DNA from: Silanimonas sp.
GTDB lineage: Bacteria > Pseudomonadota > Gammaproteobacteria > Xanthomonadales > Xanthomonadaceae
NCBI RefSeq assembly: GCF_027531545.1
Contig: NZ_JAPZSC010000020.1
Span: 89,061 to 153,060 of the forward strand
DNA length: 64,000 nt
Direction of reading: 5' to 3'
The stretch's first letter is position 1, and each line of letters opens with the position of its first letter. A program made the translations under genes and the position numbers. Below the pieces are notes generated by a model. It ran no database searches, had not been told where the DNA came from, and saw only the letters and a list, made by a program, of their open reading frames with translations. Below, piece after piece: positions 59,291-64,000 of the stretch.

Positions 59291-59583
59291 GCGCACACCA
59301 CATAGAGCGGGCGCCATTACGCTAGGTCCGAAATCGGACAAGATGGTCGGTCGCGTTGGCGCGACTGAAGATGCCGAGCTACACAGAGTCGGGGGGACGT
59401 CGCTGAGTAGCAAGTCTCTTTAAGGGCCGCTCGCTCAGTCGAATGGCCGGTGCGGGTCGGCTTGAGCCACCCAGCCGACGAACCAGCAGTCGCTCCCGCC
59501 GGCCTATGCCTCTCGATGGGATCAGGTGCTCAAAGCCAGCGGATAGTGCTGGACATCTGATCTCAGCATCAGAGCCAAAGTGC

Positions 59584-60024
59584 TTAGGCCGATCGGAGCG
59601 TCTCCAGGCGGCGCATCACTTCCTTTTTGCCGAGCTTCCTGAGCTCAACAAGAAAAGCGATAGCCTTGCCCTTGGGCTGAGAGCGTTGAGCTTCCCAGTG
59701 CGAGACGGCTCCGCTACTGACGCCGCAGAGCTGCGCCACATCCGCCTGCGAAAGGCCAAGCCGGACCCGCAGTGAGATGATCCCCTTAGCCGTGATCCGC
59801 TCTCGGGTGGCTGCACCTTTGGCGGCGGGCTGTTCCTTAGCCCCTCGCCCTGTCGAGCGCTTCAGACTGGCGACCTCGCGCTTCAGCGCTTGGACCTCCT
59901 GCTTGAGGTCGGAGAGCAGCTTTTTGTTGCCACGCGTGGCCTTGATCGATCCGTCGAAGAGTGCTTTTGCTTCCTTACGAGCCAGTCGGCGGATTTCAGC
60001 CCTGAGTGCTTCGTAAGCGGACAT
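59584..60024 (-). CDS. XRE-type helix-turn-helix protein with coiled-coil N-terminus
   Basis: ISLRVRLGLSQADVAQLCGVSSGAVSHWEAQRSQPKGKAIAFLVELRKLGKKEV. Confidence 0.8.
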   Translation of the reverse strand: MSAYEALRAEIRRLARKEAKALFDGSIKATRGNKKLLSDLKQEVQALKREVASLKRSTGRGAKEQPAAKGAATRERITAKGIISLRVRLGLSQADVAQLCGVSSGAVSHWEAQRSQPKGKAIAFLVELRKLGKKEVMRRLETLRSA

Positions 60025-60148
60025 CTTGCTGCCTTTCTTTGGTTGAAGCTCGAGGATGCCTGCTCGCGGGCCAACCTGCACTCACTCCTTCTCTCGGGGA
60101 ACTAAAACGAAACCTCCCCAATCCGTCGCACGACGTCCAAAAGCGCTC

Positions 60149-60221
60149 ATTCAACGTGCGAGCTAAACGGCCGGATTAATCGCGAAGCGATTGATTGGTC
60201 CGCTTGAGCGAGTTGTTATGC
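60149..60221 (-). mobile_element. attC-like integron recombination site 1 (73 bp)
   Basis: Minus strand GCATAAC...CTCAAGCGGACC AATCAATCGC-TTC-GCGATTAATCC GGCCGTTTAGCTC...GTTGAAT; R' fits GTTRRRY, stem has bulged bases. Confidence 0.85.
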
Positions 60222-60222
60222 C

Positions 60223-60528
60223 TCAAAGCGGAAGATCCGATATGGGGACGACTCGACACTCTATGGCCGCCGAACTCTCGGCCGAGTCTCTCGACGGATA
60301 GGGAACAAGCACAACGAGCATGAGATCAACTGGCACCCCTCTCGCCCGAGACGAAATGCTCCGAAGCCAGTCTTGTGGCGCAACGGATAGCCGCTTCTCT
60401 GCGGCACGACTTATCTGATAACGCCCGCAAAATGAGCACGAGAAGCTCTTTCGATTCCCCTGATCTGCAAAGGCAAAAACGGCCGGATTGGCACAAAGAA
60501 CGCAGTTTTGCTCTTGATTTGCGCTCAT
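60223..60528 (-). CDS. Small Cys-rich (zinc-ribbon-like) hypothetical cassette protein
   Basis: NCVLCANPAVFAFADQGNRKSFSCSFCGRYQISRAAEKRL; stop codon directly abuts the attC R'' core (TGAGGCATAAC). Confidence 0.6.
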   Translation of the reverse strand: MSANQEQNCVLCANPAVFAFADQGNRKSFSCSFCGRYQISRAAEKRLSVAPQDWLRSISSRARGVPVDLMLVVLVPYPSRDSAESSAAIECRVVPISDLPL

Positions 60529-60535
60529 TTTTGGC

Positions 60536-61456
60536 TCAGCCCCTACGAACGCAGTTGTCTAGATCGCTCCTCGCGTCCTCATGTAAGCGAGCATACTCCG
60601 CCAGCGGAGCATCCTGAGGGATGGCCGCGGTCACTCTCTGATAAGCATCCCAACAGCGAGCGTTGTGCTCGTCCTTGTAGTTGACGCCAACTGCGGAATC
60701 CTGAACAGGCTGATGGGTCGGAGCGTTTTGAATGTGGAAACTTGAGCCCTGCTGGATGATCGACAGCTTGTTCGTGACAGCAATTTTCTCCAACGCATAG
60801 TCCCAAGGCACACTCACAGCGCACGCCGCTACGTTGCCACGCACGCCTTCGTCTGCGGTGAATTGCATACCAGACTCTTGTGCGATAAGGCTCAACAATG
60901 TGCGCAGAGGCACAGAATCAAACTGAAAAGAAACCGTCGTCCCGGAGTAGCCACTCATGTCATGCCCAAGCGGCGCGACGATGCAGTTGCTCGGCGCACT
61001 TGGCTGGCCTGCAATTGGATTGACGAACACCTCTGGCTTATTCGGCGAAACCGCCACTTGGGGCTCGACGACCCCGCTCGTTGGCTCTGCAACGGAGAGG
61101 TTCGAGTCAACCTTATGGGCGTCGATCGGCCGATCGGAACGCGATGAAATGACCGGAATGACAATGCCGGCGACTATTCCGATCGCGCAAATTCCAAGCA
61201 ACATCCAGCCGATGATTCGAGTCTCGGATTGCTTTTGCTCAGCCCCACTAATGCGCGCCTTGACTCTTCCAAGCCATACGTAAAGTGCGCTGCACACAAC
61301 CAAAACCAGCGCCTTGAGAAGAGCAACTGCCCACATGCCCCCCGTGACCTCACGAATGTTCGGAAGCCAACTCGTGATCACCGGCAGAAGACCAAGGATC
61401 TGCCAGGCAGCGACCAGACCTACCAGTACGCGAAGGATTCGAATCATCGTCAGCAT
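60536..61456 (-). CDS. Inner-membrane protein with C-terminal orphan secretin-N/STN-like domain
   Basis: About three N-terminal TM helices; VSFQFDSVPLRTLLSLIAQESGMQFTADEGVRGNVAACAVSVPWDYALEKIAVTNKLSIIQQGSSFHIQ resembles the PilQ/secretin STN module; RBS ggGAGttcacggcATG. Confidence 0.65.
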   Translation of the reverse strand: MLTMIRILRVLVGLVAAWQILGLLPVITSWLPNIREVTGGMWAVALLKALVLVVCSALYVWLGRVKARISGAEQKQSETRIIGWMLLGICAIGIVAGIVIPVISSRSDRPIDAHKVDSNLSVAEPTSGVVEPQVAVSPNKPEVFVNPIAGQPSAPSNCIVAPLGHDMSGYSGTTVSFQFDSVPLRTLLSLIAQESGMQFTADEGVRGNVAACAVSVPWDYALEKIAVTNKLSIIQQGSSFHIQNAPTHQPVQDSAVGVNYKDEHNARCWDAYQRVTAAIPQDAPLAEYARLHEDARSDLDNCVRRG

Positions 61457-61476
61457 GCCGTGAACTCCCTTTTGCG

Positions 61477-61549
61477 GCCTAAGGTTTGAGCTAAGCGGCC
61501 ACATCAATCGCGAAGCGATTAACTGGTCCGCTTGAGCGAATAGTCAGCT
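61477..61549 (-). mobile_element. attC-like integron recombination site 2 (73 bp), degenerate cores
   Basis: Minus strand AGCTGAC TATTCG CTCAAGCGGACC AGTTAATCGC-TTC-GCGATTGATGT GGCCGCTTAGCTC AAAC CTTAGGC; stem-loop closely matches site 1. Confidence 0.8.
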
Positions 61550-61558
61550 CTGAACTCC

Positions 61559-62599
61559 TCATTGAAGCCCTTCAATGAAGCGCTGGATCTGCTTGACGAA
61601 CACTTGCGTATCCAGAAAGTAGTTCGGGTACGCCTTTCGCAGAGACTCTACGGGACCGGCAGAAACCAAGACTGCCTCTACTGGCTCACCTGACTTGGTT
61701 CTCGCCTCAATTGCGGCATAAGCAATGTTTGCCTCCTCAAGCTTTGCCACCGCGAAGGGCCTGATAGAAACAGTTCGCTTTAGAGAATCTAGCGTGATCA
61801 AGTGATAGCCACCTTGACCGCGCTCAGTTGTAATCCGATCTGTCGCAATTGCGAAGCCTCTCAGCTTCTCAAGTACACGCAAGCGTTGCTCTGATGCATG
61901 AAGGCGCTCGTAGATCTGCTGCGTAGTACAGCTCTCAAAGCCTGGAACCGGAGTTGTTTTCTCCAGATCAGCAAGTGCCGCACTAGCAACCGCAAAGAAC
62001 TCGCGCCACTGCTCCTCGCCTTGACCTGACTTAAGTGCTTGCCCGAGAAAAGTACCCATCGTCTCTACGGCTGTAGCCCACGCGTGCTGCAACCGAGTGC
62101 GAATCTGGAGCTCAAGGGAGAGTCCGTCGTACTCAACCGCCCTCGGGTTGGAGTACTTGTAGATCAAGTGGATTCCGCGGTACCCATCGGCCTTTGGGTC
62201 AGCCAAGTAGTCTTTTGACGAGACCAGTTCATGCAGGAAACTTGACTGCATGTAAGAGCTCTCGAGTTTTCGTACCCGAGCCACGGTTGAAACGACCGCC
62301 CGTAGCCCGCCGATATCTTGCATTCGCGCGAGCTTCATCCCCTCAAAGCGCCTCAGCTTCAAGACGATAGAAGGAGTACGCTTTAGGCGCTGCGCGACAA
62401 TGGCCTTCTCGTCAATGCTCTTGAGCTTGGAACGCAATGTGGCTTGAAAGGTATTGATCGGATAGCCATGCGCTGCTCTGTAGTTGGTCAATACTTGGTC
62501 TGCGAAGACTCGATCGCTCAACGACGCATCATCCGAGATCAGGATGTCTCCCGCTCGGTTGATCTGCTTTTTTGAGTACTCAGGCTTCGCAAAGGACAC
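61559..62599 (-). CDS. RelA/SpoT nucleotidyltransferase-domain protein
   Basis: ARMQDIGGLRAVVSTV, PKADGYRGIHLIYKY, LSLELQIRTRLQHAWATAVETMG; GTG start preceded by gggag. Confidence 0.85.
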   Translation of the reverse strand: MSFAKPEYSKKQINRAGDILISDDASLSDRVFADQVLTNYRAAHGYPINTFQATLRSKLKSIDEKAIVAQRLKRTPSIVLKLRRFEGMKLARMQDIGGLRAVVSTVARVRKLESSYMQSSFLHELVSSKDYLADPKADGYRGIHLIYKYSNPRAVEYDGLSLELQIRTRLQHAWATAVETMGTFLGQALKSGQGEEQWREFFAVASAALADLEKTTPVPGFESCTTQQIYERLHASEQRLRVLEKLRGFAIATDRITTERGQGGYHLITLDSLKRTVSIRPFAVAKLEEANIAYAAIEARTKSGEPVEAVLVSAGPVESLRKAYPNYFLDTQVFVKQIQRFIEGLQ

Positions 62600-63181
62600 G
62601 GAATCTCCCAAAAGAGCTAACTACTTGTGTTACCCGGATGTGGGGGCTATCAAAAGCCTGCACCGCTGCCGGGCGATGGGTCAATCTCCGAGATGTTTCG
62701 CCAGAACAACGGAATGGCCGGCCTGAGCGGACTCCCAAGCCTTGGGCGCATGCGCCACGGACGTCGGAACATGCGGAGGAAGAAACAGCACTAAAGAGTA
62801 GGGAGGCGTTACGGGGATGCCGAACGCGCCGGCTCAGGCCGACAGAGGCTGCCAATAGTCCTGGCGTGATCACCGCATGCTGCCGACTACTGCCTGCTGT
62901 TCTGGGGGTTTACCGCCCTTGCACCACGATTTCACACGGCGAGTTGGTCGGTCCATTGCAGGCGACCACCTGTGGATGGGTATGGAAATGGACGGGCGAT
63001 ACGCCTGAGACAAGGCGCCGTCTTTTTGCCGGATGTAGAACCGCTAGGGGAATGACCGCTATGGGTCGTCTGGAGCCACCCAGCCATCGGGCTGAGTTCG
63101 GCCAAAAGCGGACAGTCGAAGCCAGCGGCTTGCTTGCCGGTAGTATCGGTTCAATATGGTCGTCCCGCCCCGGAGGCGGCC

Positions 63182-63805
63182 ATGCAAGCTCAGCGATCTA
63201 CACCGTCCCAAGACCCGTGGAACAAGGGAAAGCTAACAGGCCAGAAGGCGCCACTCAGGTTGAACGAGATCTACGCGATCAGGGTCAGGCTCCAGCTTTC
63301 GCGACGCACCCGTGATCTGGCGCTGTTCAACCTGGCAATCGACTCGAAGCTGCGTGCGTGCGACCTGTTGAACCTAAGGGTCATGGACGTGATGCATGGC
63401 TCGCAGCTAGCCAGCCGCGCCATCGTGATGCAGAAGAAGACGAAGCGTCCCGTGCAGTTCGAAATCACCGAGCAGACAAGAAAGTCTCTTGCCGACTGGA
63501 TTGAGCAGGCCGCGCTGCGGAACGGTGAATTCCTCTTCCCAAGCCGAATTCGAAGTTCGCCACACCTAACCACCCGGCAGTACGCCCGGATCGTTCATCA
63601 GTGGGTTCGCGAAATTGGCCTCGACGATTCGTCCTACGGGACACACACCATGAGACGAACGAAGGCGGCCCTCATCTATCGGCGAACCCGAAATCTTCGT
63701 GCCGTCCAACTGCTTCTTGGGCACACAAAGATCGAGAGTACCGTTCGGTACTTGGGCGTCGAGCTTGATGATGCCCTTGAGATTGCGGAGCAGACCGAGG
63801 TTTAG
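63182..63805 (+). CDS. Minimal (catalytic-domain) tyrosine recombinase/integrase
   Basis: Catalytic set present: DSKLRACDLLNL (R), VMQKKTKRP (K), THTMRRTKA (HxxR), LLLGHTKIESTVRYLGV (H, Y); no room for a canonical IntI-length N-terminus. Confidence 0.88.
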   Translation: MQAQRSTPSQDPWNKGKLTGQKAPLRLNEIYAIRVRLQLSRRTRDLALFNLAIDSKLRACDLLNLRVMDVMHGSQLASRAIVMQKKTKRPVQFEITEQTRKSLADWIEQAALRNGEFLFPSRIRSSPHLTTRQYARIVHQWVREIGLDDSSYGTHTMRRTKAALIYRRTRNLRAVQLLLGHTKIESTVRYLGVELDDALEIAEQTEV

Positions 63806-63822: not shown

Positions 63823-64000
63823 TCATCGTCCCGGCTGAAGCGCGATCACCGCCATCCCTGCCAAGGCAAGGCTCACGCCCGCCACATCCCAAAGGGACGG
63901 CCTGATGCCGTCCACCATCCACAGCCAGGCAATGGCGAGGCCGATGTAGACGCCACCGTAGGCCGCGTAGACGCGCCCCGACGCCGCTTCATGGAAGGTC
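63823..64000 (-). CDS. C-terminal part of YnfA/UPF0060 family small membrane protein (truncated by window edge)
   Basis: Minus-strand translation [57 protein letters not shown]; not in the supplied ORF track. Confidence 0.85.

Follow-up and report, generated by a model that had tools for sequence, protein, structure and literature searches.

A pair of cassettes at an attI without intI in Silanimonas: very probably a decayed second integron with CapRel-type cargo

Near the right end of the stretch of Silanimonas sp. DNA analysed here (the window, 64,000 nucleotides at the end of contig C38), two gene cassettes lie on the minus strand with no integron integrase gene (intI) beside them. The usual definition of a CALIN is a cluster of two or more attC sites with no intI close by (PMC12444791), and the initial annotation, made from the letters of the window, described an integrase-less, CALIN-like cluster. 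We asked whether these are loose cassettes, the broken-off end of another array, or what is left of an integron in its own right. As set out below, the cluster is in all probability a decayed second integron, with its own attI and two cassettes, one of them with CapRel-type cargo, from which intI has been lost. It consists of the following features, in cassette order:

62617–62824, minus strand: attI and part of the former intI–attI spacer (HMM of the intI–attI regions of the genus, E = 6.5e-12)
61483–62620, minus strand: cassette 1, from the attI crossover to the R' core of the inner attC; start and end cores 6/7 complementary
61559–62599, minus strand: CapRel-type fused toxin-antitoxin ORF of cassette 1 (PDB 7ztb/9erv, E = 9e-39, full length; PADLOC PDC-S33, E = 3e-123)
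61477–61549, minus strand: inner attC, which ends cassette 1 (leave-out covariance model, 76.2 bits)
60155–61482, minus strand: cassette 2, between the R' cores of both attC sites; own start and end cores 5/7, against 3/7 when swapped
60536–61456, minus strand: ORF in cassette 2 that has hydrophobic N-terminal stretches and a putative short secretin-type N domain (TIGR02515 positions 1–74, 33.9 bits, below the cut-off)
60223–60528, minus strand: 101-aa ORF of cassette 2 with CxxC pairs, its stop 1 bp from R''
60149–60221, minus strand: outer attC, which ends cassette 2 (leave-out covariance model, 63.6 bits)

The attC sites of the window

The same genome holds an intact integron on contig C65, whose IntI (C65:78470–79411) scores 479 bits against a cut-off of 265 and whose intI–attI is followed by an array of 12 attC sites that reaches the contig end. 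A covariance model trained on 11 attC sites of contig C65 alone, with the window sites excluded (the leave-out model), would have spoken against attC sites in the window had it found nothing; instead it matched the inner site at E = 1.8e-19 and the outer site at E = 8.8e-16. Both are 73 bp long and in one orientation, as had been claimed in the initial annotation. The leave-out model found no further convincing attC in the 64-kb window, where the third-ranked match, a weak antisense echo of the same attC stem, reached 14.6 bits. By blastn, the window and C65 sites form one family, mostly with 76–91% identity.

We call attC a stem in which L boxes are conserved and two bases are extrahelical, with complementary cores on its two sides, R'' (RYYYAAC) and R' (GTTRRRY), and both window sites fall into this class. 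In the stem alignment 97.5% of the cells are paired, and six pairs show changes on both sides among 13 distinct sites, compared with at most one such pair after sliding of the partner column. Two bases are unpaired in the R''-side arm, at alignment columns 16 and 23, and this is the arm where extrahelical bases are expected in attC sites. The DNA folding energies of the two sites gave z-scores of −2.4 and −0.2, folding energy alone being a weak test here, and an Rfam scan of the region returned no credible match. In the outer attC (R'' GCATAAC, R' GTTGAAT) both core triplets are intact and R'' is one base off the consensus. The inner attC (R'' AGCTGAC, R' CTTAGGC) has lost both the conserved AAC and the conserved GTT triplet, from which we conclude that it is decaying.

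A helix-turn-helix regulator ORF (59584–60081, minus strand) lies just beyond the outer attC, and its stop codon shares bases with a GCCTAA, an arrangement found in real cassettes. We looked past this ORF for a third, degraded attC and found no support for one: the best hit in an unfiltered covariance search reached 8.6 bits on the opposite strand, and the alignment scored 28 where the 95% level of the controls was 29. Isolated single attC-like sites were also seen off both clusters, at G000:C38:59274–59344 (minus strand, 43.6 bits) and G000:C71:16894–16957 (minus strand, 35 bits).

Genuine but worn cassettes

Each attC lies directly downstream of a minus-strand ORF. From stop to R'' we measured 9 bp for the RelA/SpoT-like (CapRel-type) ORF, whose stop ends at 61559 with R'' starting at 61549, and 1 bp for the 101-aa ORF (60223 versus 60221), in agreement with the 1–10 bp given before. 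Cassette 2 contains two ORFs, the 101-aa one having no family match in our family-profile searches. The start and end cores of a cassette should be complementary, and the initial annotation had counted 6/7 for each cassette. Our recount reproduced 6/7 for cassette 1 and lowered cassette 2 to 5/7, the earlier figure having arisen from a C replaced by G. Swapping the ends reduces the values to 4/7 and 3/7, so that each cassette matches itself best; we therefore regard both as genuine but worn. In the C65 array, taken as a control, the cores are 7/7 complementary in all 12 cassettes. The cluster is also AT-richer than its surroundings, as had been noted, with about 55% GC against about 70% elsewhere.

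Stem-loops fixed at syntenic positions would have been at odds with mobile cassettes. The single syntenic locus found, in genome G150, retains the left flank at 87% identity over 1.07 kb, continues into different genes and has no attC, and the CapRel-type gene is absent from the other seven genus genomes searched; the cluster is thus not a fixed element of the locus. We found no empty-site sequence that shows the insertion directly.

An attI without its integrase

What precedes the first cassette helps to distinguish the readings of the cluster. We built an HMM from five intI–attI regions of the genus, that of C65 among them and the window locus excluded. It returned one significant match in the window, the attI and spacer segment listed above, with a runner-up at E = 1.1. 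Conservation is strongest at 62617–62668. The part of the spacer outside attI, when searched alone, gave a match that is weak by itself (E = 0.0056) but still correctly placed and oriented. The crossover G|TT falls at 62621/62620 and coincides with the start of cassette 1, where the window reads GGGTAACACAAGTAG|TTAGCT and the C65 attI ends in ACACAAGTAG|TTAGGC; the two attI sites are 82% identical over 44 bp. When two mismatches were allowed, the crossover 14-mer occurred in the whole genome only at the window site and at the C65 attI. At the start of its first cassette the cluster thus carries an attI that shares homology with the attI sites typical of the host lineage. An earlier attempt to follow the homology from attI on into intI by pairwise alignment stayed within loose-gap noise and was replaced by the profile search.

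The stretch to the right of attI comprises 1.4 kb, as the contig ends at position 64000. Within the window we found no IntI coding sequence after attI, and a complete integron, with intI adjoining attI, is therefore not present. The CALIN-like description of the initial annotation holds locally, in that there are two genuine cassettes without a nearby intI, but it is incomplete, because an attI of their own and part of the spacer accompany them.

This attI also bears on two other origins. The cluster could be the missing distal part of the C65 array, cut off solely by the assembly: C65 breaks off inside an attC at its contig end, the window stands at the end of contig C38, and the directions would fit. 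Yet what precedes the first cassette of the window is an attI rather than an attC, and the leave-out model found no attC in the 1.4 kb from attI to the contig end, which makes a mere assembly split highly improbable. The C65 IntI could alternatively have placed the cassettes into a secondary, attG-like chromosomal site, giving a CALIN that never had a platform of its own. Insertion at secondary sites is known, Xanthomonas commonly has CALINs at a distance from intI (PMC12444791), and the genome, through contig C65, encodes a possible source of such an insertion. We consider this origin very unlikely, as about 50 bp of the upstream sequence are a genus-type attI and the next 150 bp or so show weaker homology, which would be unexpected at a random secondary site. 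Because the cluster starts at its own attI, we favour a second integron minus its intI over loose cassettes and over a broken-off end of the C65 array.

For a second integron, the following course appears plausible. An IntI would have captured two circular cassettes at the window attI by attI × attC recombination, and intI would later have been deleted, the homology to the platform now stopping near 62824. The cassettes would at present be largely stranded, while the outer attC might still serve in trans for the intact IntI of C65. Integron cassettes next to attI are usually expressed from Pc, and cassette 1, which adjoins attI, may have been placed for such expression; a simple scan revealed no promoter.

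The CapRel-type gene of cassette 1

The gene in cassette 1, earlier called RelA/SpoT, is confirmed as a gene and can be classified more precisely as a CapRel-type fused toxin-antitoxin. The ORF list starts it at a TTG at 62611, whereas we prefer the GTG at 62599, which has GGGAG upstream and gives a 350-aa reading. The closest solved structures are those of CapRel-SJ46, matched over residues 10–347, and PADLOC PDC-S33 and a PHROG family match nearly the whole ORF. The predicted model (pLDDT 88) has 7ztb as its best fold match, with an rmsd of 9.6 over the whole length that perhaps reflects a difference between open and closed states. A toxSYNTH domain and a C-terminal antitoxin-like domain are united in one protein together with a G-loop tyrosine (Y144) and a YXXY motif (YPNY, 328–331), the combination by which we recognise CapRel proteins, and Y144 and Y328 are invariant across 13 homologues. 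In CapRel-SJ46, the G-loop tyrosine Y155 is required for defence and substitutions at Y352/Y355 of the YXXY motif render the protein toxic (PMC9712102); the equivalents in the window protein are Y144 and Y328/Y331. By analogy, the YPNY-bearing C-terminal domain would keep the tRNA-pyrophosphokinase site blocked, and binding of a phage protein would open it; we infer that the cassette 1 protein may act in phage defence, by abortive infection.

The window protein shares with CapRel-SJ46 and CapRel-Ebc (PMC9712102; PDB 7ztb, 9erv) the full-length one-protein architecture, the G-loop tyrosine, the YXXY autoinhibition motif and the predicted fold. It differs from CapRel-SJ46 in sequence (about 31% identity) and in being carried by an integron cassette rather than a prophage. 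Relatives of the gene occur in 7 other genomes among the 299 of the family searched. In another genus (G288), a CapRel-like gene is followed by an attC 65 bp on; with an attC model specific to the window/C65 type, none of the CapRel homologues in 14 genome records outside the source genome was recognised as a cassette. One close CapRel-type relative (65–69%; L117, G248:C6:847615–852392) is split, with its pieces about 3.7 kb apart.

Relation to known integrons

Phage-defence genes in integron cassettes reportedly feature in Darracq 2025, Getz 2025 and Kieffer 2025, as cited in PMC12444791, and the window resembles such defence cassettes in having a defence-type gene within an attC-bounded cassette. 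CALINs and integrons with an inactivated intI have been described in Xanthomonas (PMC12444791), as have intI pseudogenes and multiple intI genes per genome (PMC2426708). The window resembles these cases (PMC12444791, PMC2426708) in its cassettes without a local integrase, in the frequent decay of intI, in defence genes among the cassettes and in more than one integron integrase per genome. Unlike them, it has lost intI but kept attI and part of the spacer, and it shares its genome with an intact integron of the same attC family. Because an intact integron and a dying one of the same lineage thus occur together in one genome, with attI surviving in the latter, the stages of decay, namely the loss of intI and the mutation of attC cores, are visible side by side. 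In one relative of the genus (G113), two differing intI genes lie on contigs C250 and C33, and the C33 IntI is 48% identical to that of C65.

Integrase loss, CALINs and defence cassettes are already known; for a CapRel cassette we found no earlier report, and the literature searched contained no paper linking CapRel or toxSAS to integron cassettes. The window and the one other genus suggest that integron cassettes serve as vehicles for CapRel-type immunity genes, which would bring a concrete family into the current picture of integrons as reservoirs of phage defence. We regard it as a useful detail inside a known framework rather than a surprise.

A small recombinase and repeats around the remnant

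The initial annotation had also stated that the window has no IntI-like gene. This is correct for a true IntI, but a small tyrosine recombinase was overlooked, to which we add the repeats around the remnant:

63182–63805, plus strand: tyrosine recombinase, catalytic domain only, about 207 aa (Phage_integrase, 75.2 bits)
59441–59476, plus strand: left copy of a direct repeat, 83% over 36 bp to the right copy
63050–63085, plus strand: right copy, just 5' of the small recombinase

The recombinase has the position and divergent direction of an intI, about 0.5 kb from attI, and the known catalytic residues appear to be present, so it could be proposed as the working integrase of the window attI and cassettes in a new type of integron. 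Against the IntI model TIGR02249, however, it scored 26.9 bits, far from the cut-off of 265 and over profile positions 235–301 only; it has neither the N-terminal domain nor the IntI signature, and the true IntI of the same genus uses attI and attC sites of the kind present in the window. Homologues were found in 15 of 149 other family genomes and in 441 plasmid records, and showed no clear pattern of association with attC sites, beside which they do not generally lie. A new integron type is thus scarcely credible, and the gene is only a candidate for a tie to the integron, which we continue to read as a remnant that lost a conventional intI. A second copy of the recombinase, 77% identical, is found at G000:C38:64750–65343; directly upstream of it is a gene for a 1300-aa DUF4365/TPR protein (L065, 5603–9505, plus strand).

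The hairpin-like repeat (at least 36 bp, 80–84% identity) occurs at four places in the genome, all on C38 and on one strand (C38:52574, C38:58418, window 59441 and window 63050), and the integron remnant sits between the latter two. Related near-palindromes, TGWCCGCT...AGCGGWCA, form arrays in genera g40 and g46 (G040:C1:2774783–2810647, L118–L120; G106:C1:1946666–1960237, L121), where the sites are often paired about 37–70 bp apart with short ORFs between them. G040 has duplicates of two units, with about 98% identity between the copies, and the homology starts and/or stops at palindromic sites. Within 150 bp of the ends of small-recombinase genes we counted 12 palindromes where 2.2 were expected, at 8 of 19 loci. 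These observations raise the idea of a second cassette system, unrelated to the integron, with the remnant inside one of its modules. In such a system near-palindromes, with the window copies at 59441 and 63050 as a longer, hairpin-like version, would bound units moved by catalytic-domain-only tyrosine recombinases, and the short-ORF array of about 37 kb in a related genus would be an example. We consider this rather unlikely. Beside eight plasmid homologues of the recombinase the motif was missing, and the G040 array occurs without a match to the small recombinase, so the link between palindromes and recombinase stays a lead. A literature search on the palindrome motif or catalytic-domain-only recombinases gave nothing relevant. 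On Pseudomonas plasmids (L123, L124 and L129), small recombinase genes are flanked by short inverted motifs unlike the g40/g46 palindromes; those of L123 are GGCCGGTTAGCGAC before and GTCGCTAACCGGCC after the gene.
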